Source: an uncultured Flavobacteriaceae bacterium (lineage in GTDB: Bacteria > Bacteroidota > Bacteroidia > Flavobacteriales > Flavobacteriaceae). From it: DNA of 64,000 nucleotides. Under the pieces are notes generated by a model. It saw only the letters and a list, made by a program, of their open reading frames with translations, had not been told where the DNA came from and did no database searches. Location of the stretch: positions 124,001 through 188,000 of the forward strand of contig CANLVG010000004.1 in NCBI GenBank assembly GCA_947494565.1, in the 5' to 3' direction. Position numbers and translations under genes: made by a program. This document shows, piece by piece, positions 10,801-35,504 of this stretch; position 1 is the first letter of the stretch, and every line of letters starts with the position of its first letter.

Positions 10801-13077
10801 TTATAGGGTAGGCACATTCGTATGTTGGTCATAAATCTCCAACAGATTCATAGTTGCTTTGAGCAAGTCTTTGGTCTCCAATAACAGACTAAAGTACAAA
10901 GCCGTGTTTTTCGGGCTCGATTCATCCGCCCTGGTGCGCTCGATTTGTTTGTTTATTTTTTGATCCAGAGTAGTCATCAACACCTCTTTGTTCATGATGA
11001 TCTGGGTCAACTGATCATACGCTTTGGTATCAAAAATAGTCTTGATTTCCGAAAAGAGTTCGTCAATGAAAATATCCGTTTCCTTCAAGTCCTTAATTTG
11101 ATTAAAGCGTAATTTTTTGTGATTGTTATGTACATGTTTGTAGCTCGCTTTCGAGATATACTCAAGCGATTGGGTCATGTCTTGTAGATAGCTCAAAGCG
11201 GTGATATAAAAATTACTGGCACCAACGCTCGATTCATCTAGGTTTTTGATGAAGTAAAAGATATTTCCGCGCAGGTCTTCCACCTCGCTGTCCAGTTTGG
11301 TAATCCCCTTTTTACTCTTTTTCAAACGGTCGATATCGTGTTTTGAAAGGCCATCGATCGCTTGTGTATAAATTTTATTCGCTCGCTCTATGGCCATTGA
11401 CATGTTCGAAGAACTCTCCTCGATCAATCCGATAATCGAATGACTTTCCGATTTTTGAAGTCGTTCCTCAAGCTTTGTCTCCTTCATTTTTTTGTTGTGC
11501 GAAAGGTAATTTCTACCGATCAATAAAAAGGCGATGACCAAAAGTACCGCTACGGCCCAAATACCACCGAGATGTATGACATAGGCAATGAAAGCGGCAG
11601 CCGTAAAGGCACTGATGGCGGTAAAGAACCACCCGCCTATAACGTTGAGCACTCCCGCGACCCGATACACTGCGCTTTCAGGCCCCCAGGCACGATCGGC
11701 CAAAGAAGTACCCATAGCGACCATAAAGGTGACATAGGTGGTTGAAAGGGGAAGTTTCATTGAAGTTGCGATTGAAATGAGTACACTGGCGACCATAAGG
11801 TTGACGGCTGCCCTGACCAAATCAAAGGCGGGCAAATCTTGAACCCTGCTTTTTGGAATATAGACATAGGGTTTTTCAAATCGGGAATCTATTTTTTGAA
11901 CGAGTGCTTTGGGAAGGATCCCTCCGAGATTTTCGGAAGCCTGAATAGAGAATTTCACAATTTGTCGTGATAGAAAATTAGGCTGAAAACGTTCATCGCC
12001 CTCATCTTGGCGCGATAGGTCGACACTGGTCTTCACCACATTTTTCGCTTTGGAGGAAAACCAAAGGGTAATGACCATGATCACTCCCGATGCCAATAAT
12101 AAATAGGTAGGTGTTCGCACCGCTTGTGAAAGGCTTTCCATGGTAAATTCTGCTGCAGTAGTACCGGAAGCACTCCAAGAATTGAACGATTCAAGGGCCG
12201 CTAGGGGAACCCCGATAAAATTCACCAAATCATTGCCCGCAAAGGCCATGGCCAGGGCAAACGTGCCGAGAACAATGATGAAGGTATAGATGTTGATTTT
12301 TAGAAAATTACTGGCCAACCATGAGAAAAAAGACCAAATAATGAAATTGCCAAAAAGAAAAACTTCCGGATGTTGACCTATATAATCCAGTATTGCAGGA
12401 CTAAAAATCGAAGCGCTCTTAAGGCCTTTGACGATAATGAAATAGATAATTGAGGTAGTGGCGAATCCACCAAAGAGCGCACCCACCCATTTCGGTATTT
12501 CGGCAAATTTGAACGAAATCAACATCCGCGATATGAACTGTACCAAGGCACCAATAGTGAAAGCCACAACTACGGAAAGCAAAATGCCCAGAATGATTTG
12601 GGTTGCCTTTTCGGTATTGATATAGCCATCGAGCTCAGCGAAACCTCCTCCTGTGGCTGCAATCTTGACCAGGGAAATGGCCACGGCTGCGCCCAGCAGT
12701 TCGAATACGATCGATACTGTGGTCGAGGTTGGCATTCCCAGGGTATTGAAAAAGTCGAGTAGGAGAATATCGGTAATCATTACCGCCATAAAGATGATCA
12801 TGATTTCGGCGAAAACGAATTCAGACGGATTGAATATGCCCTTCCGGGCGACTTCCATCATTCCACTGGATGACATGGCCCCAAAGGCGATACCCACACT
12901 TGCAACGATCATGATGGTTTTAAATGAAATTGCTTTCGATCCGATCGCCGAGTTCAAAAAGTTGACCGCATCGTTGCTGACGCCCACTACCAAGTCGGTT
13001 ATGGCGAGCACAGCAAGTGCAATAATCATAAATAGATAAATGTTCTCTTCCACGTAAGAATGCAGATGGTTGGCCAT
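10801..13077 (-). CDS. PiT-family inorganic phosphate transporter fused to a PhoU-like domain
   Basis: A 758-residue inner-membrane protein. The N-terminal 540 residues or so carry two PHO4 half-domains: VVGVSNDAVNFLNSAIG (about 31-48) and LPLSTTYVTFMVAMGTSLAD (about 435-455) are versions of the PiT signature. Residues about 545-755 are soluble, helical and charged, like the DUF47/PhoU-like proteins that often accompany PiT genes as separate proteins. PiT carriers import phosphate, often as a metal complex, driven by the proton gradient. ATG 13077 is preferred over TTG 13080. The promoter region contains repeats in 11-bp steps like Pho boxes (13121-13138 and 13285-13335). A DUF6503 gene follows in the same operon. 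Confidence 0.88.
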   Translation of the reverse strand: MANHLHSYVEENIYLFMIIALAVLAITDLVVGVSNDAVNFLNSAIGSKAISFKTIMIVASVGIAFGAMSSSGMMEVARKGIFNPSEFVFAEIMIIFMAVMITDILLLDFFNTLGMPTSTTVSIVFELLGAAVAISLVKIAATGGGFAELDGYINTEKATQIILGILLSVVVAFTIGALVQFISRMLISFKFAEIPKWVGALFGGFATTSIIYFIIVKGLKSASIFSPAILDYIGQHPEVFLFGNFIIWSFFSWLASNFLKINIYTFIIVLGTFALAMAFAGNDLVNFIGVPLAALESFNSWSASGTTAAEFTMESLSQAVRTPTYLLLASGVIMVITLWFSSKAKNVVKTSVDLSRQDEGDERFQPNFLSRQIVKFSIQASENLGGILPKALVQKIDSRFEKPYVYIPKSRVQDLPAFDLVRAAVNLMVASVLISIATSMKLPLSTTYVTFMVAMGTSLADRAWGPESAVYRVAGVLNVIGGWFFTAISAFTAAAFIAYVIHLGGIWAVAVLLVIAFLLIGRNYLSHNKKMKETKLEERLQKSESHSIIGLIEESSSNMSMAIERANKIYTQAIDGLSKHDIDRLKKSKKGITKLDSEVEDLRGNIFYFIKNLDESSVGASNFYITALSYLQDMTQSLEYISKASYKHVHNNHKKLRFNQIKDLKETDIFIDELFSEIKTIFDTKAYDQLTQIIMNKEVLMTTLDQKINKQIERTRADESSPKNTALYFSLLLETKDLLKATMNLLEIYDQHTNVPTL

Positions 13078-13120
13078 CAATTAGGTCAATCACAAAAGTG
13101 CTACTATAATTCAGTTTGTA

Positions 13121-13138
13121 GGTTAATTTAATGTTATG
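13121..13138 (-). promoter_or_regulatory. candidate Pho-box-like direct repeat before the phosphate transporter gene
   Basis: Read on the minus strand, the site holds ATAACAT and TTAACCT placed exactly 11 bp apart, 44 nt upstream of the transporter ATG. About 20 nt downstream is CACTTTTG (13100-13093), a near match to the flavobacterial -7 element. The repeat would thus sit where a -33 element is expected, as in activator-dependent PhoB promoters. Chance is possible for a single pair in AT-rich DNA; the support comes from the similar sites at 13285-13335, 14224-14285 and 19644-19680. Confidence 0.45.
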
Positions 13139-13284
13139 AAATGGTTTAGGGCTATGGCGAATGAGATTTGGGTCTAAAGGATACTTATACGTCGAGTTTT
13201 TACGTTCAAAGTCTTGAAAACCCTATATAAATTGAAAAAAAAATAGAGGGTCGAAATACTAAAGCGGTTTCTTTTTCGTTATCA

Positions 13285-13335
13285 ATGTAAATTTAATGTT
13301 AAGCAAAAGTTGTTTAAACGTAAAATTTATGTAAC
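13285..13335 (-). promoter_or_regulatory. array of five repeats in 11-bp steps
   Basis: On the plus strand, five 7-bp elements are spaced by exactly 4 bp: ATGTAAA (13285), ATGTTAA (13296), AAGTTGT (13307), ACGTAAA (13318) and ATGTAAC (13329). Read on the minus strand they become TTACAT/TTAACAT-like elements with the spacing of PhoB or cyanobacterial SphR boxes. The orientation points toward the phosphate transporter, 200 nt away, while the array physically covers the -33 to -7 region of the MORN-protein promoter. It may therefore activate one side, repress the other, or both. Confidence 0.5.
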
Positions 13336-13339
13336 TTTG
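13310..13339 (+). promoter_or_regulatory. flavobacterial-type promoter of the MORN-protein gene
   Basis: TTG at 13310-13312 and TAACTTTG at 13332-13339 are separated by 19 nt, an exact match to the Bacteroidota TTG-N17-23-TAnnTTTG consensus. The ATG follows 18 nt after the -7 element. The array described at 13285-13335 overlaps it. Confidence 0.7.
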
Positions 13340-13357
13340 TGATATAATATTCGTACT

Positions 13358-13714
13358 ATGAAAAATACAATCTTGACACTCGCTATACTATGTTGCACCG
13401 CAATTTCCTTTGCACAGCAACAGCCTGAACTGAAGTTGAACGAGGAAACAAACCTTATAGAGGCTACCTATTTTCACGAGAATGGGAAAATAAGCCAACA
13501 GGGGACCTTCAATTTGGAGAAGCAGCTTCACGGCAATTGGATCAGCTATGATGAGCAGGGCGAGAAGATATCAAAAGGTTCTTATGTGAACGGACTAAAA
13601 ACCGGGAAATGGGTGTTTTGGTCTAAAGGAGATAAGAAAGACGTAATTTATGACAATAATGCGATTGCTAGTGTGAATGGTATTCAGAAAGAGTCACCAG
13701 TGGTAAAAAATTAG
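13358..13714 (+). CDS. secreted MORN-repeat (YwqK-like) protein
   Basis: A 118-residue protein with a signal peptide (cleavage near SFAQ, residue 19) and at least two MORN-like repeats: EATYFHENGKISQQGTF and ISKGSYVNGLKTGKWVFW. Such short proteins are often labelled YwqK-family antitoxins, but no toxin gene is adjacent, and the exported form argues for an envelope role. It has its own strong promoter (13310-13339) and ends in a rho-independent terminator (13731-13768), so it is a single-gene transcript. Its promoter shares DNA with a repeat array that resembles Pho boxes. Confidence 0.7.
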   Translation: MKNTILTLAILCCTAISFAQQQPELKLNEETNLIEATYFHENGKISQQGTFNLEKQLHGNWISYDEQGEKISKGSYVNGLKTGKWVFWSKGDKKDVIYDNNAIASVNGIQKESPVVKN

Positions 13715-13730
13715 CAGAAGTTTCCCCCCA

Positions 13731-13768
13731 AAAAAAGCATCCCGAAAAAACCGGGATGCTTTTTTTTG
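13731..13768. terminator. bidirectional rho-independent terminator
   Basis: A perfect 9-bp stem (AGCATCCCG / CGGGATGCT, 13736-13744 and 13752-13760) with a 7-nt loop is flanked by an A-run on the left and a run of eight or more T on the right. It can stop both the plus-strand MORN gene and the minus-strand gene ending at 13800. Confidence 0.85.
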
Positions 13769-13799
13769 TAAACTATTTCAACTATAACCTCGTCTTGAG

Positions 13800-14198
13800 T
13801 TATTCTTTTTGAAGTCCTGCGCCGTTGGAAACGGTTTCCTCTTTTCTTACTAATGATTCTAAGCCAGCGACACCTTCCAAGCTGATTTGTTTGGCGCCCA
13901 TACCCAAACTTACCTGTGTAATTTCATCTGCTTTCACTGCGATAGGCATTTCAATGGTTTCATATCCCGCGTAGGTTACGACCAAGGTGTATTCGCCACT
14001 CTCCAAAGCGCCAAATTCAAAATTGCCATGAAAATTGGTCTCAGTTTTAGCATCTACTCCTTTCAATTGCACATGGGCAAATAACAAAGGTTCGTTATGC
14101 ATTTCTTGGTCCAAAATAGTACCTCTAAGACCCCCTTGGTTTTGAGCGAATCCGATGGTGGTCATCATCAAAAGGAATATGGCAAGACAATTTTTCAT
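13800..14198 (-). CDS. small secreted CarboxypepD_reg-like protein
   Basis: The ATG at 14198 gives 132 residues with a signal peptide (ending near GFAQ); upstream in-frame codons cross a terminator and are rejected. Residues about 22-110 form one CarboxypepD_reg-like beta-sandwich (LRGTILDQEMHNEPLLFAHV ... ESGEYTLVVTYAGYETIEMP). This resembles the N-terminal extension of the receptor at 16703-19546, which reads KLSDKEMNNDPLPFAN and LEPGTYTVVFSFLGYETVEVP at the same places. It has no plug or barrel, so it looks like a stand-alone copy of that extension. Its upstream region holds six repeats in 11-bp steps. It follows the receptor-lipoprotein pair on the same strand but after a terminator, so it has its own promoter. 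Confidence 0.7.
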   Translation of the reverse strand: MKNCLAIFLLMMTTIGFAQNQGGLRGTILDQEMHNEPLLFAHVQLKGVDAKTETNFHGNFEFGALESGEYTLVVTYAGYETIEMPIAVKADEITQVSLGMGAKQISLEGVAGLESLVRKEETVSNGAGLQKE

Positions 14199-14223
14199 TT
14201 GCGTGATTCTATTTGCTGCAAAT

Positions 14224-14285
14224 AACGTTGTCGAATGTAAAGTTAAGGTTAGGTATAGATTAAAATTGGGTAAGAAAAAGGTTAA
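14224..14285 (-). promoter_or_regulatory. array of six repeats in 11-bp steps (candidate Pho boxes)
   Basis: On the minus strand, in gene direction, the elements are TTAACCT, CTTACCC, TTAATCT, CTAACCT, TTTACAT and CAACGTT, each separated by exactly 4 bp, ending 26 nt before the ATG at 14198. The core CTTAACCT-like sequence and the 11-bp period match the known layout of cyanobacterial SphR and proteobacterial PhoB boxes. I infer binding of a PhoB-family response regulator; no such gene lies in this window. Confidence 0.55.
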
Positions 14286-14322
14286 GTTGTAAACAAATGA
14301 AAACAGATTTCCTTGGGGTATC

Positions 14323-14354
14323 AAAAGAAAACCCCGCTCTTCAGCAGGGTTTTC
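14323..14354 (-). terminator. rho-independent terminator of the receptor-lipoprotein operon
   Basis: In the leftward direction the RNA forms a 10-bp stem (AAAACCCTGC with GCGGGGTTTT, one T-G pair) around a 6-nt loop, followed by TTTTCTTTT. It lies 59 nt after the lipoprotein stop at 14413. Confidence 0.75.
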
Positions 14355-14412
14355 AGTGGTATTTAATTGAGGCTTAGTTTCCTGTAGCCCAATCAAACAT
14401 AGTACTATAGGC

Positions 14413-16647
14413 CTAGAAACCAGTTGCCCATCCAGACGCCCAAGTGGGTTGCGCAGCACCATTGCCAGCGCCGGTATTATCACCTACAGTGATGAATGAC
14501 ATATTTGCGCCTGTATAGTTTGTTTGTGCAAAACCTGTAGCTGGAGCATTAAACTGCATTGGATTGATTGATAGGGCGTTTGCTTCAATACGAACACCAG
14601 CTTCTACATCGGTATCTTTTACATTGACGCCTAAGTCGACACCGCTGGTATAGAAATTGGTTATAGTGAAGTTACCACCACCTTCTTTAAAGAATATTGC
14701 CCCTTCAGTAACCGGACCAACGACTGTAATATTGCTTAGAGTAGTTGTGGTTACTGGGGTAGCATCTCCGTCGTCTCCGTTATTGGAACCTTCGATACCA
14801 GCTTTTGCACCATTTGCAATATACCAGCTGTCACCGTTTCCGGCCCAACCGTCAGCGAAGTCGATAGAATCATCACCGCTTCCGATAGAAACCAAGAAGT
14901 TTCCATCAACAGTTCCTCCGAAGAACTCAATGCCATCATCTCCTCCATTTAAAGACTGAACATAGTCGAAAGTGGTTCCTGAACCAACTCCGAATAATGA
15001 TACACCATTGAACTCCTTATCATTTGAGAAGGTTGCACCAGTGTACTCTACCCTTAAATAAGTAATCGAACCAGAATCATCGGCAGCATTGGTTCCACCA
15101 TAAGTCAGGTCACCAACTTCGGTTGTTACATCCGTTCCTTTGTTTGTTGGCGCATCACCAGCGATAACCAGACCGCCCCACGCTCCTGGAGTGGTATCTT
15201 CCGAGGTCATTACAACTGGATCGGAAGCCGTACCATTGATGAAAATTTGTGCGCCTCTTTCAACTCCTATAAATGCAGCGGTTCCCCCTGATGCTTTAAT
15301 TGTTGTTCCTGCAGGGATAGTTAAGGAACCACCTTCCTTAACTACAAAACCACTTGTTAGAAAGTATTCGGTTGACGCATTTAGGGTGACATCGCTTGTT
15401 ACTACACCGGCCAAGTTTTCGCTGGTGGCAGCGGTACTATTGTCAAGACCTGTAGTCCAACCAGCTGCCCAGTCCGGAGATGCTGCCCCGTTACCAGCTC
15501 CAGTAGCAATACCTTCGGTGTAGAAATCAGTATTAGCTCCTGCATAATTGGTAGCTGCAAACCCTTCCGCGGTATCTGCGAATTGAATGTTAGTGATTAC
15601 TAAAGCATCAGAATCAATTCTTAAATTGGCCTCTGAATCGGTATCTTTCACATTAATTCCTAAATCAATACCAGAAGTGTAGAAGTTATCTACAGTGAAA
15701 TTACCACCACCTTCTTTAAAGAACAATGCACCCTCACTCACTGGACCAACAACAGTAATATTACTCAAAGTAGTTGTGGTCGTAGGTACCGCATCACCAT
15801 CATCACCATTATTGGAGCCTTCGATACCAGCTTTGGCGCCACCTGCTATATACCAGTTAGAACCGTTACCGGCCCAACCGTCGGCGAAGTCGATTGAATC
15901 ATCCCCGCTTCCAATAGACACCAAGTTGTTTCCGTCAACAGTACCACCAAAAAACTCGATTCCATCATCTCCTCCGTTGAACGATTGAACATATTCAAAA
16001 GTGGTTCCTGAACCAACTCCGAATAAGGATACACCGTTGAACTCTTTATCATTTGAGAAGGTTGCACCAGTATATTCAACACGTAGATAGCGGATAGACC
16101 CAGAATCATCAGCAGCATTTGCTCCACCATAAGTTAAGTCACCCACTTCAGTGGTGACATCCGTACCTTTATTGGTCGGGGCATCACCAGCAATTACCAA
16201 ACCACCCCAAGCACCAGGTGTAGTGTCCGCAGAAGTCATGATTACAGGAGCGGCTGCTGTACCTTGAATGTCTATTTGAGCACCCCTTTCTACGCCAATA
16301 AATGCAGCCGTACCTCCAGAGGCAGTTATCGTAGTTCCTGCGGGAATGGTCAATTTAGCTCCAGCCTTAACAACATATGCGCCCGTCAAAGTGTACGTAT
16401 TTGCGGCATCTAATGAGGTGTCTTCGGTTACATCACCTGCAAGATCTACTTCCATTCCTGTTGGGTCTGGATCAGGGTCTGGACAAGCAGTACATGAACC
16501 ACCACAGTCAACGCCTGTTTCATCACCATTTTGAATACCATCCGTACAGGTGGGATCATTTGTCGGGGCGTTATCGTCATTGCTACAGGAGGCTATGAAA
16601 GCCAAGGTAGCTAGACCTAACATGAGAGAGAAAATCGTTTTTTTCAT
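14413..16647 (-). CDS. surface lipoprotein with two tandem beta-helix-like modules
   Basis: A 744-residue lipoprotein (lipobox IASC, Cys21). A Cys-rich linker follows (CTDGIQNGDETGVDCGG, then CTAC, about 34-55), of a type seen on Bacteroidota surface lipoproteins, then a DPDPDP spacer. Residues about 66-401 and 409-744 are two copies of one module rich in Gly, Asp and Thr; its strings such as IPAGTTI.ASGGTAAF, GAWGGLVIAG, DDGIEFFGGTVDGN and SIGSGDDSIDFADGWAGNG suggest a right-handed parallel beta-helix. No catalytic motif is evident. It is 55 nt downstream of the TonB-dependent receptor gene and shares its operon, so it may be the receptor's surface binding partner, in the way SusD serves SusC. 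Function unknown. Confidence 0.7.
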   Translation of the reverse strand: MKKTIFSLMLGLATLAFIASCSNDDNAPTNDPTCTDGIQNGDETGVDCGGSCTACPDPDPDPTGMEVDLAGDVTEDTSLDAANTYTLTGAYVVKAGAKLTIPAGTTITASGGTAAFIGVERGAQIDIQGTAAAPVIMTSADTTPGAWGGLVIAGDAPTNKGTDVTTEVGDLTYGGANAADDSGSIRYLRVEYTGATFSNDKEFNGVSLFGVGSGTTFEYVQSFNGGDDGIEFFGGTVDGNNLVSIGSGDDSIDFADGWAGNGSNWYIAGGAKAGIEGSNNGDDGDAVPTTTTTLSNITVVGPVSEGALFFKEGGGNFTVDNFYTSGIDLGINVKDTDSEANLRIDSDALVITNIQFADTAEGFAATNYAGANTDFYTEGIATGAGNGAASPDWAAGWTTGLDNSTAATSENLAGVVTSDVTLNASTEYFLTSGFVVKEGGSLTIPAGTTIKASGGTAAFIGVERGAQIFINGTASDPVVMTSEDTTPGAWGGLVIAGDAPTNKGTDVTTEVGDLTYGGTNAADDSGSITYLRVEYTGATFSNDKEFNGVSLFGVGSGTTFDYVQSLNGGDDGIEFFGGTVDGNFLVSIGSGDDSIDFADGWAGNGDSWYIANGAKAGIEGSNNGDDGDATPVTTTTLSNITVVGPVTEGAIFFKEGGGNFTITNFYTSGVDLGVNVKDTDVEAGVRIEANALSINPMQFNAPATGFAQTNYTGANMSFITVGDNTGAGNGAAQPTWASGWATGF
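14416..15423 (-). repeat. second copy of a ~1-kb intragenic tandem duplication
   Basis: Encodes residues about 409-744. The copies differ mainly at third codon positions and in the segments near the ends of each module, so the duplication is not brand-new but the protein is held similar. Confidence 0.85.
15445..16452 (-). repeat. first copy of a ~1-kb intragenic tandem duplication
   Basis: Encodes residues about 66-401 of the lipoprotein. It is collinear with the second copy at a period of 343 codons (1029 nt); long blocks of protein such as DAPTNKGTDVTTEVGDLTYG are identical in both. Confidence 0.85.
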
Positions 16648-16702
16648 TGTTTCTTGTTTTTAATAGGGTTAAAAAAGTGTTCTAATTTTTCAATTACTAG
16701 CA

Positions 16703-19546
16703 TTAAAATTTATAAGAAAGGGAAAGGGAGAAATCGACACCCCTTTTGTATGACAGCACCGTGAGAGGACCGTCTTCCAAAAATCCTGGTATTGCAGGAT
16801 TGTCCAAATCCAAGTTCCCTTCGGCATTTTCGTTTACTCTTTCAACTAGTGGGTTTAACAAGTTTCTTAGGTTTAATCCGAGACCAAAGTGTTTTCCCAA
16901 TTGTACTTTGGAGATCAAATCAAGTGTTACATAGCCTTGATCTACGAGGTGCCCACGTCCTGTACTACCAAGGGCAAACAAGCGGCTTGAAAAATAATTG
17001 GCCGCTAGTGTTGAGGTAAATTCCTTGTCCTCTCCAAATTCCTTAAAGTAACTGATGTCACCATTTACGATTACATCCGACGCTCCTTGCAAAGGTGCCT
17101 CTGTGTTCGTGAATGCCGCGGATAGACCTGTTTCCGAGGATACCTTTTCAGAATCCAATTCTTGATTTGTATTCAGGTACGAGAAATTTCCGCCTATGGT
17201 CAACCTTTCTTTCAAAAGAGATTCACCAACTTCCTTTTCATTTTCCAATAAGTTTAGCCGTACCTCCAATTCAGCACCAAAAGCTGTGGCGGAATCCCCG
17301 GTATTTGCATAGCTCAAATCATTGGCCGCTGAAACCACCAAGAAGGTATTGATCGGGTTTTCAATGAACTTGCCAAAGACTCCAAGAGAGACGATCTCAC
17401 TGGCCGAAGGGAACAACTCCCAACGTAAATCGAAATTATAGTTAATGGAATTTTCAAGTTCCGGATTACCAAAAGAATCCTGGTTGATTTCTTCTTGGAA
17501 TAAAAACGGTGCCCGCTCTTTGAACTGTGGCAAGGTATACGTTCTACTAGCCGCGAATCTCAAGTTTTGTTTTTCGTTCAGTTCGTATTTTAAAGCTAGG
17601 GATGGCAAGAATTCAAAAATGTCCAATTCATTGCTATCTTCTCCCTGAATCACCGTATTCCAGTTGATTGACTGATTGATTTGCTCCCCCCTAGCGCCTA
17701 AAAGCATGGTAAATTTTGGAGAAAATCTATAATCTAAACTTATGAATCCGGCATTGATTTGTTGATCTCCACCAAAGGTTTGGGGGTCAAGTGCTCCGGG
17801 AAAAGAAGAAGGACCTCTGAACGTTCGTATTTGATACAATCCTGAACTGAGCGGATTTTGTTGAAAATACGCATCGATATTTCTGATATCGACTTCAGGC
17901 TGATCGTTGATATTCAAGAATTGATAATTAAACTGAACGGCCTCAAAATCTACGTTCTTAAAGCGTCCGTTATATCCAATGGTCAGTTTGCCATCAAACT
18001 CTTCTTCTTCGTTCTTCTTGAACTTATAAGTGGTTGAGATATTCGCCGAAATTTCTTCCTCTTCCAAATCTTGAAAGAACCTGTGGTTTTCAGATGCGGC
18101 GGAGACCAATCTGAATGATTTAGGGCCTTCAGGATTGTTATTGTTGAGAGGAAGTACGGTATTTTGCCTTCTGTCCGGTACAACATTAAGAACGTAATTA
18201 TACCCTGCACCCCAGTTGACCTCGATTTTATCCGTTAGATCATGTTCACCAAGTAACTGATGTATCGTTAGTGTGGTTCGGTCAAAAGTAGCTCTTTGAA
18301 TGAAGCCACCTCCTTCAGGTGCATCATCTTCTCGGTCGAGAATTCCGAAAAACTCTTCTTGCTTTTGTTCGGAATTGTTCAGTAACAGAAAGTTATATTT
18401 AAAGGCGTGTGCCTCACCTAATCGAAGACCTACATTTCCCATGAGGGTCGTGGACGTTTGATAGCTGAACTTCTCATAGTCAAAATCAGAGTTTGCCAGA
18501 CCGTTGCCGACATTTGGAGCTCCTCTATTTACACCCTGCCTATAGGAATTGGTATTGCCAAAGGAACCGACCGCGAAGAAGTTTAGCCTCGTCTTTTCCC
18601 CTAAAGTGTACGAATCACCACCTTTTAATGAAAAACTTGAATTCAAAGGGGTGCCGGCTGTTTGTCTATCCCAGCTCGTGGTGAACGTGTCAGAAAAAGG
18701 GTTGTTGGCGATGGACTGATCATAAAATCCTGAAAAATTCGGTCCGTCGGTGGTATAAAACTGATCTACCCCGAGTGCTTCCGAATTAGCCCCCGATTGA
18801 AGTCCTAATTCAAGAAAACCTGAGCCCGTGTAGTCTCGGGAAACTATATTGATATTGGCACCCCCAAAATCACCATAATTTGCAGCATTGTACGTTTTAT
18901 CAATACCAATGGATTGGATAATGCTGGTTCCGAAAATACCGAGATCGATATTCTTTTTTGAAGTGTTGTTAGAAGGTAGCGGTAGGCCATTCAGCGTGGT
19001 GATATTAAATCGATCACCCAAACCTCTCACATAAACGTTACCCGAACCTTCTTCTTTCGAAATACCCGTTACTTTACTGACCGCCGTTGCCGCATCGCTA
19101 GCACCTTTTCGGGCAAGTTCTTGTGCTCCAATAGAAGTTTCTAAAGTAATGGCTTTCTTCTGGTCTAACAAAAGCGCCGTCTCCGAATCTTTTCGTGCCA
19201 CGGTGGTGACCACTACTTCTTCTAAAGCAACACCTCCGGCTGCCATCGCCATATTGATGGTCGAAACCTTTCCGGCCTCAACGGTCACGTCGGGCACTTC
19301 TACGGTTTCATACCCTAAGAAACTAAATACTACTGTATAGGTACCGGGTTCCAAATCGGCAATTTCATAAAGACCATCAAAGTCCGAAGTGGTTCCAGTG
19401 GTGGTCCCTTTGATTAAGATGTTGGCAAAAGGCAAAGGATCGTTGTTCATCTCTTTGTCCGACAGTTTTCCGGCTACGCTGCCGGTGTCTTGTGCAGAAA
19501 CCTGCACTACTGCTGCAAGTAGCAGCATGGTTAGAATTCTTTTCAT
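16703..19546 (-). CDS. TonB-dependent receptor with N-terminal CarboxypepD_reg-like domain (not SusC type)
   Basis: The ATG at 19546 gives 947 residues with a signal peptide (ending near VSAQ); the longer frame to 19630 adds 28 residues before it and is rejected. Residues about 20-105 are a CarboxypepD_reg-like domain, followed by LEEVVVTTVARKD (TonB-box-like), a plug domain with VYVRGLGDRFNITTLNGLPL, and a beta-barrel ending in SYKF. It lacks SusC signatures and a SusD partner; the repeat lipoprotein directly downstream may take that role. The promoter region (19644-19680) carries TTAACAT/TTAATAT in an 11-bp step, so phosphate control is plausible. The substrate is unknown; an organophosphate or other phosphorus compound is a hypothesis. 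Confidence 0.85.
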   Translation of the reverse strand: MKRILTMLLLAAVVQVSAQDTGSVAGKLSDKEMNNDPLPFANILIKGTTTGTTSDFDGLYEIADLEPGTYTVVFSFLGYETVEVPDVTVEAGKVSTINMAMAAGGVALEEVVVTTVARKDSETALLLDQKKAITLETSIGAQELARKGASDAATAVSKVTGISKEEGSGNVYVRGLGDRFNITTLNGLPLPSNNTSKKNIDLGIFGTSIIQSIGIDKTYNAANYGDFGGANINIVSRDYTGSGFLELGLQSGANSEALGVDQFYTTDGPNFSGFYDQSIANNPFSDTFTTSWDRQTAGTPLNSSFSLKGGDSYTLGEKTRLNFFAVGSFGNTNSYRQGVNRGAPNVGNGLANSDFDYEKFSYQTSTTLMGNVGLRLGEAHAFKYNFLLLNNSEQKQEEFFGILDREDDAPEGGGFIQRATFDRTTLTIHQLLGEHDLTDKIEVNWGAGYNYVLNVVPDRRQNTVLPLNNNNPEGPKSFRLVSAASENHRFFQDLEEEEISANISTTYKFKKNEEEEFDGKLTIGYNGRFKNVDFEAVQFNYQFLNINDQPEVDIRNIDAYFQQNPLSSGLYQIRTFRGPSSFPGALDPQTFGGDQQINAGFISLDYRFSPKFTMLLGARGEQINQSINWNTVIQGEDSNELDIFEFLPSLALKYELNEKQNLRFAASRTYTLPQFKERAPFLFQEEINQDSFGNPELENSINYNFDLRWELFPSASEIVSLGVFGKFIENPINTFLVVSAANDLSYANTGDSATAFGAELEVRLNLLENEKEVGESLLKERLTIGGNFSYLNTNQELDSEKVSSETGLSAAFTNTEAPLQGASDVIVNGDISYFKEFGEDKEFTSTLAANYFSSRLFALGSTGRGHLVDQGYVTLDLISKVQLGKHFGLGLNLRNLLNPLVERVNENAEGNLDLDNPAIPGFLEDGPLTVLSYKRGVDFSLSLSYKF

Positions 19547-19643
19547 TTTTAGTTTACTATGTTTGATTTTAAATACCGCTGCAAAAGAACCATGCAGGTG
19601 TAAAAGTCGAGTTATCCGTATGTTAAACATGTATTGTAAAAGT

Positions 19644-19680
19644 GTTAGCTAAACGTTACTATATTAAGCGAATGTTAAGC
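19644..19680 (-). promoter_or_regulatory. candidate Pho-box-like repeats before the receptor gene
   Basis: On the minus strand CTTAACAT and CTTAATAT start exactly 11 bp apart, then GTAAC and CTAAC form a second pair 11 bp apart, offset by 8 bp. The site ends about 98 nt before the receptor ATG. A weak -7-like TTCTTTTG lies between. It resembles the sites at 13121-13138 and 14224-14285. Confidence 0.45.
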
Positions 19681-35466: not shown

Positions 35467-35504
35467 AAAGTTTTACATTTATTTAACATACGTTGTGATA
35501 CATA

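Follow-up and report, generated by a model that had tools for sequence, protein, structure and literature searches.

Phased arrays of 11-bp repeats as a predicted PhoB box in a Flavobacteriaceae genome without detectable PstS or PhoU

The pho box of Escherichia coli sits at the place of the -35 element, and the PhoP box of Bacillus subtilis and the SphR box of cyanobacteria, which belong to different phyla and to a different promoter type from those considered here, are made of TTAACA-like repeats about 11 bp apart. In E. coli, the box consists of two 11-nt direct repeats, each with seven conserved positions and four less conserved ones, to which the effector domain of PhoB is bound head to tail (PMC4415409). 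In Bacteroides fragilis, PhoB (BF1576) is needed for pst expression and binds the pstC promoter in an electrophoretic mobility shift assay, and the phosphate/sulphate permease gene BF3715 is PhoB-dependent (PMC3547664). The PhoBR operon of Flavobacterium johnsoniae (Fjoh_0541-0549) carries PhoR and PhoB beside a TonB-dependent transporter and an exported lipoprotein and is strongly phosphate-induced, with log2 changes on phosphate depletion of +3.06 for Fjoh_0544 (PhoB), +8.02 for Fjoh_0545 (the transporter) and +9.91 for Fjoh_0546 (the lipoprotein), none of which responds to depletion of iron or nitrogen (PMC8115612). The words promoter and motif are absent from the main text of that paper, which we have hence taken as giving no box, and a literature search of open-licence PMC papers brought up none in which we recognised the definition of a Pho box for Bacteroidota. 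Here, we analyse a stretch of 64,000 nucleotides from an uncultured Flavobacteriaceae bacterium (the window; G000:C4:124001-188000), whose locus of interest encodes a Pit-type transporter, a MORN-repeat protein, a stand-alone CarboxypepD_reg-like protein (CPD), an exported lipoprotein and a TonB-dependent receptor (TBDR). Upstream of the TBDR, CPD, Pit and MORN genes, NTAACAT-like units recur at exact 11-bp steps. We are confident, short of certainty, in predicting that these arrays are binding sites of the PhoB-type response regulator of the family, and the locus would best be read as carrying this family's PhoB box in a genome where neither PstS nor PhoU is detectable.

The general anatomy comprises up to six 11-bp half-sites, the third of them weak, followed by 12 nt and then by the -7 element TTTG(C); the consensus of the unit, taken from ortholog TBDR promoters, is NTAACAT-N4. 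The TBDR array, on the reverse strand at 19598-19659, has six units in one register at 11-bp steps (GTAACGT, CTAACAC, the degenerate ACAATAC, TTAACAT, ATAACTC and TTTACAC), 12 nt from the TTTG; its -7 element TTTTGC lies at 19581-19586, with the ATG at 19546 about 35 nt downstream, and an alternative, longer TBDR start at 19630 would run into the array. Two distal units, TTAACAT-N4-TTAATAT (19661-19678, reverse strand), are out of register with the main array (8 bp instead of 11), and a 19-bp pair spacing like theirs is also found in 10 of 28 ortholog promoters. The CPD array (14235-14285, reverse strand) holds the five units TTAACCT, CTTACCC, TTAATCT, CTAACCT and TTTACAT, and its TTTGC (14218-14222) comes 12 nt past the last of them. 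At Pit, the array (13109-13137, reverse strand) is made of ATAACAT (13131-13137), TTAACCT (13120-13126) and a degenerate ACTGAAT (13109-13115), with TTTTG at 13097-13093. Finally, the five units of the MORN array (13285-13335), of which the middle one is poor, are on the reverse strand, opposite to MORN, and overlap MORN's own TAnnTTTG (13332-13339) and the TTG at 13310. Bacteroidota promoters have their -33 element in the arrangement TTG / TAnnTTTG, and the succession of six half-sites, 12 nt and TTTG(C) therefore implies that the array occupies the place of that element. A sequence-only reading of the window had already pointed to the four groups of repeats; all of them exist, with coordinates right to within 1-2 bp, but the unit counts given for two were wrong. 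The CPD array was thought to have six units, whereas the sixth, CAACGTT, does not fit, and the TBDR array had been described as 2+2 units at 19644-19680 instead of six in register plus two outside it.

This architecture is conserved across the family. TBDR relatives were found at E<=1e-60 in 124 of the 149 genomes sampled (148 genera), and 30 TBDR loci were taken from these 124; in 26 of the 30 upstream regions, twice on the antisense strand, the best-scoring pair step was 11 and not 9, 10, 12 or 13. For a spacing test we used 28 ortholog promoters from outside this genome, 27 of them from other genera, leaving out our own sequence and L081. Pairs of T[AT]AC at spacing 11 are present in 27/28 and at spacing 33 in 25/28, while spacing 11 occurs in 5/28 on the antisense strand and in a mean of 1.6 sequences (maximum 7) after dinucleotide shuffling. 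The distances from T[AT]AC to TTTG in these promoters peak at 18, 29, 40, 51, 62 and 73 nt. This test is unfitted; in the consensus display, by contrast, the TTTG anchor was picked for each sequence as the best fit to the units and is thus fitted (L053, L067, L080 and L081 were left out). An unseeded motif search yielded the -7 element CTTTGC and did not recover the boxes. The array is in register with the -7 element far beyond chance.

The genes that follow the array are also a restricted set. A six-unit model (L053, L064, L065, L067 and L081 left out) was scanned over 497 kb of phoB and TBDR neighbourhoods, most of whose TBDR rows were in its training set; all 24 matches scoring at least 7 precede a TBDR (20), a CPD (2) or porin-like genes (2), and the best score of the reversed control was -3.5. 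Above the control maximum of 18.2, a model of the proximal half added, among the matches listed, three further porin-like genes, a lipoprotein gene, a Pit gene and a site with no gene. The porins of L176 and L193 are confirmed by Pfam, and those of L175, L186 and L192 are named from sequence likeness. Across 296 genomes of the phylum, three units plus TTTGC at up to one mismatch were found in 25/30 genomes of the window's family versus 9/266 others, with the reversed control at 2/30 and 5/266, respectively. The Fisher p of 5e-24 for this contrast overstates independence, because 17 of the 30 family genomes are one genus; counted by genus, the figures are 8 of 12 in the family and 9 of 128 elsewhere. 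The 25 family loci retrieved lie before a TBDR in 19 cases, before a CPD-like gene in two and before a lipoprotein resembling the TBDR-adjacent one in one, the remainder being a 450-aa protein (L217), a purB-like gene (probably chance) and a site without a gene at a contig end. The 450-aa gene of L217 has a porin-like look and no Pfam match, and we did not retain it as a porin. Outside the family, two pattern matches stand before a type I phosphodiesterase-like gene (L209:429-1481) and before a HAD-hydrolase gene (L235:1596-2276); at 9/266 against 5/266 in the control, they could be chance.

Within this genome, the shorter parts of the array tell us little. The 11-bp pair by itself is no evidence, because YTWACMTN4YTWACMT with up to one mismatch has 104 matches in the genome and the reversed control pattern has 239; the pairs had been held to be specific to the phosphate neighbourhood, and a pair matrix would fail the test which that reading had set for itself, namely that hits should favour phosphate genes over random AT-rich intergenic DNA. 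Exact pairs occur nine times, three times inside the window (two at the reported sites, one at tetR) and six times near genes without a phosphate role apparent from their translations. Genome-wide, the three-unit motif is not above its reversed control, and three units plus TTTGC at three mismatches are at control level (14 vs 16); at up to two mismatches, only TBDR and CPD are among the matches listed, the CPD promoter fitting this pattern exactly. The sites that we inspected elsewhere in the genome (20 stretches around chosen pair matches and 15 around chosen later matches) were mostly coding sequence, terminators or stretches before genes without an apparent phosphate role. That the shorter parts are no commoner than their controls and that the inspected sites fall mostly in such places speaks for chance runs in AT-rich intergenic DNA. 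However, spacing, strand and register are conserved across genera, which contradicts such an origin for TBDR, CPD and Pit and makes it scarcely credible as an account of the arrays. Our initial scoring of the window proves nothing alone, because its matrix was derived from the very units at issue. An independent test used a six-unit model built from 24 TBDR promoters with this genus excluded (L053, L054, L064, L065, L067 and L081 left out): over 295 kb, comprising the window and the fetched stretches, the window's TBDR promoter (66.0) and CPD promoter (32.3) were the top two, the next score being 2.1 and the best of the reversed control -2.7. At L205, a chosen locus at a contig end, the half-model scored 21.4 against 17.5 for the control.

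The region of tetR had been described as free of repeats. Nevertheless, a TTTACATTTATTTAACAT pair lies at 35472-35489, about 57 bp before tetR begins; it scores equal to the best pair of the reported sites and, read toward tetR, resembles the inverted MORN arrangement. It is possible that this pair and the distal TBDR units are chance occurrences. A further exact inverted pair, ATGTAAATTTTATGTAA, lies at L033:6256-6273 (G000:C4:93255-93272), and the gene that it precedes resembles that of a ribonucleotide reductase small subunit; in G142 (L182), ribonucleotide reductase-like genes adjoin the array-bearing TBDR. All these genes were named by eye.

One could also argue that the TBDR promoter is the sole true target, the CPD array being a copied relic and the sites at Pit and MORN being weak or without function. 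Over 121 aa, the CPD protein shares 36% identity with the N-terminus of the TBDR, and for this reason the CPD gene probably arose by partial duplication of the TBDR gene, promoter included; since its array was probably copied together with the TBDR 5' end, it does not count as independent evidence, unlike the sites at the Pit, porin and MORN genes. Pit, moreover, has just two units. Against this narrower proposal, the array is retained in the CPD promoters of three genomes, and both of the other sites keep their geometry in the fetched neighbourhoods. In 7/7 Pit promoters a TAAC pair starts exactly 40 nt before TTTG, and among offsets 20-59 the only other one is 51, in 1/7; the Pit pair is thus array positions 4 and 5, with position 6 lost. 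Upstream of MORN, an inverted 11-bp pair, mostly ATGTTAATTTAATGTTA, is found in 9/9 loci, its second core lying 38-39 nt before TTTG in seven (36 in L171, 30 or 63 in L183). We therefore regard restriction to the TBDR as unlikely. In the window, the array overlaps MORN's own TAnnTTTG and TTG, which suggests repression, but an activator site in reverse orientation would equally account for the conserved distance. The earlier view of MORN, whose array is conserved yet inverted, as an ordinary regulon member is not supported.

Several lines of evidence connect the array with PhoB. The genome's own phoB (G000:C2:132447-133130) adjoins the gene of its kinase PhoR and shares 88% identity with its counterpart in G001, and the recognition-helix region VWGNEVVVGGRTIDVHIRKLREKIG is the same in all four genomes aligned. 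Of 21 TBDR neighbourhoods in other genomes, 11 contain a PhoB 73-88% identical to our own. A remnant, TTAACCT-N4-TTAATCC ... GTAACGT-N4-ATAACAT, lies before our own phoB (L169:10192-10229), at the place where the close relative G001 has its TBDR promoter; in the window, TBDR and lipoprotein are away from phoB, beside a dGTPase gene. Thus, the TBDR-lipoprotein pair appears to be placed beside either phoB or the dGTPase gene and seems to have moved between these two loci, and the remnant indicates that phoB may be autoregulated. The pst genes expected by the sequence-only reading are a different matter: PstS (PF12849) and PhoU (PF01895) gave no match in this genome, which is 99.99% complete, each search being positive in 13/14 control genomes. 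According to PMC8115612, pstS is present in 26/102 Flavobacteriaceae genomes.

A different member of the OmpR/PhoB family could bind the arrays in response to another signal, such as redox or envelope stress. Direct repeats with a spacing of about 11 bp are common in the sites of OmpR-family regulators, for example WalR, which counts in favour of this possibility, as do the three other full-length regulators of this type in the genome. In addition, the PhoP motif of Riemerella anatipestifer was likened by its authors to that of ArcA, with aerotolerance and membrane targets stressed (PMC9603813). On the other hand, PhoB, the only regulator looked for there, recurs in the TBDR neighbourhoods; the F. 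johnsoniae genes, which we took as counterparts of the window genes by family and position, react to phosphate and not to iron or nitrogen (PMC8115612); and the array genes include those of a phosphate transporter and of phosphate-selective porins. We consider another regulator improbable. Our data instead favour PhoB. For the TBDR, CPD and Pit promoters, conservation between genera, the helical phasing of array and promoter, phoB adjacency in relatives and the published F. johnsoniae induction lend strong support to the earlier proposal of a Pho regulon with its own box of PhoB geometry.

Some observations weigh against assigning the arrays to PhoB and phosphate. The further OmpR/PhoB-type regulators just mentioned are among them, and the Pit and MORN sites of the window are not singled out by the six-unit models. 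The porin gene Fjoh_0542 is not induced by phosphate depletion (-1.3, not significant; PMC8115612, Table 1), although in two close relatives, F. johnsoniae CI04 and F. denitrificans, the porin promoter has a partial array. Conversely, the phytase-linked TBDR Fjoh_1368 rises by +9.2 log2 on phosphate depletion (PMC8115612). We took 20 of the 45 Flavobacterium phytase genomes and the upstream regions of 21 genes of TBDR size, one of which is probably not a TBDR; 11-bp pairs were present in only 4/21, and a partial array above control (15.6) lay directly before the phytase-linked TBDR in 3/20 loci (L251, 27.6; L241, 19.0; L259, 18.3), L251 having one more such site elsewhere in the locus. Likewise, the genome's own PhoX-like gene, for which a match had been expected, has no array upstream, and four other genomes (G050, G001, F. 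denitrificans and F. johnsoniae CI04) lack a match to PhoX, which we had tried as a marker. Because most phytase-linked TBDR genes and the PhoX-like gene lack the array, we conclude that it marks a core of the phosphate response and not the whole. As a side observation, ATAACAC-N4-TTAAT is conserved in many Flavobacterium phytase-TBDR promoters (L243-L258) and is perhaps a degenerate array.

How might the arrays work? PhoB binding, the number of dimers, the direction of regulation and phosphate as the signal in this organism are what we infer in the following scheme. When phosphate is scarce, PhoR would phosphorylate PhoB, dimers of which would bind head to tail, each 11-bp unit taking up one monomer; about three dimers would thus fit on one helix face of a full array. 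PhoB at the -33 position, 12 nt before TTTG(C), would then recruit RNA polymerase. The induced genes would be those of the TBDR and lipoprotein, the stand-alone CPD protein, the Pit transporter (through two half-sites) and, in relatives, the OprP-type porin; at MORN, with its reverse-pointing array over its own promoter, PhoB would probably repress or work from a reversed site. It is tempting to speculate further, though we hold this only tentatively and would not bet on it, that Flavobacteriaceae possess a phosphate switch without Pst and PhoU in which a phased stack of about three PhoB dimers on hexameric arrays serves a core-only box (TBDR-lipoprotein, porin and Pit), activating when forward and repressing when inverted over a housekeeping promoter (MORN), with the other phosphate-induced genes responding mostly indirectly.

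The TBDR gene itself (16706-19546, reverse strand) encodes a CarboxypepD_reg-like N-terminal domain, a Plug and a barrel. Directly downstream on the same strand is the gene of the 744-aa exported lipoprotein (14416-16647), which has no Pfam match, probably shares an operon with the TBDR and, judged by position only, may be the counterpart of Fjoh_0546 (FII); its translation (14413-16647) has two long, very similar halves, an internal duplication. The CPD gene (13803-14198, reverse strand) encodes an exported protein of 132 aa with a stand-alone CarboxypepD_reg-like domain, and the MORN gene (13358-13711, forward strand) an exported MORN_2-repeat protein of 118 aa. The Pit gene (10804-13077, reverse strand), of the PHO4 type, ends in a conserved region of about 240 aa (10804-11520) that belongs to no Pfam family, has a mean column identity of 64% across 7 genomes and is predicted, at low confidence, to be all-helical. 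We dropped the idea that this C-terminus is a PhoU domain: there was no Pfam match, a profile search of solved structures returned no PhoU, and the AlphaFold pLDDT was 47.

Both in soil and in the sea, Flavobacteriaceae are major recyclers of phosphorus. RNA-seq has identified phosphate-induced genes of the family but, as far as we found, without a binding site. An alignable box with a fixed promoter register would allow candidate direct PhoB targets to be read from the genomes of the family, would help to approach TonB receptors whose substrate is unknown and would open the sensing of phosphate in the absence of a detectable PstS or PhoU to direct tests.

Compared with the systems already described, this locus departs from the classical Pho regulon with its pstSCAB-phoU genes, as neither PstS (PF12849) nor PhoU (PF01895) was matched in the genome. 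Riemerella anatipestifer belongs to the same order as the organism of the window. Its PhoP, a possible counterpart of our PhoB, is raised by phosphate starvation, and the most conserved bases of its DAP-seq motif are TTTAACA, a likeness that counts in favour of PhoB here; the motif is, however, reported as ArcA-like and tied to aerotolerance and pathogenicity, and the passages on it mention neither a repeat array nor a -7 register nor a phosphate box (PMC9603813). B. fragilis differs in having pstSCAB-phoU and in lowering expression of its porin O gene BF2289 in low phosphate, and the passages on its PhoB give no box sequence (PMC3547664). In contrast to the F. johnsoniae operon, the TBDR and lipoprotein of the window are not beside phoB. 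With respect to E. coli, the unit reads NTAACAT instead of CTGTCAT, the arrays reach up to six units, the promoter has the Bacteroidota -7 element TTTG, and neither PstS nor PhoU was found. Nevertheless, the arrays share the hallmarks of a Pho box: they are tandem direct repeats of 7+4 = 11 bp in at least two units, they hold a fixed position in the promoter (inverted at MORN), and they lie upstream of phosphate-acquisition genes (TBDR, Pit and OprP-type porin), though not of all the phosphate-induced ones.

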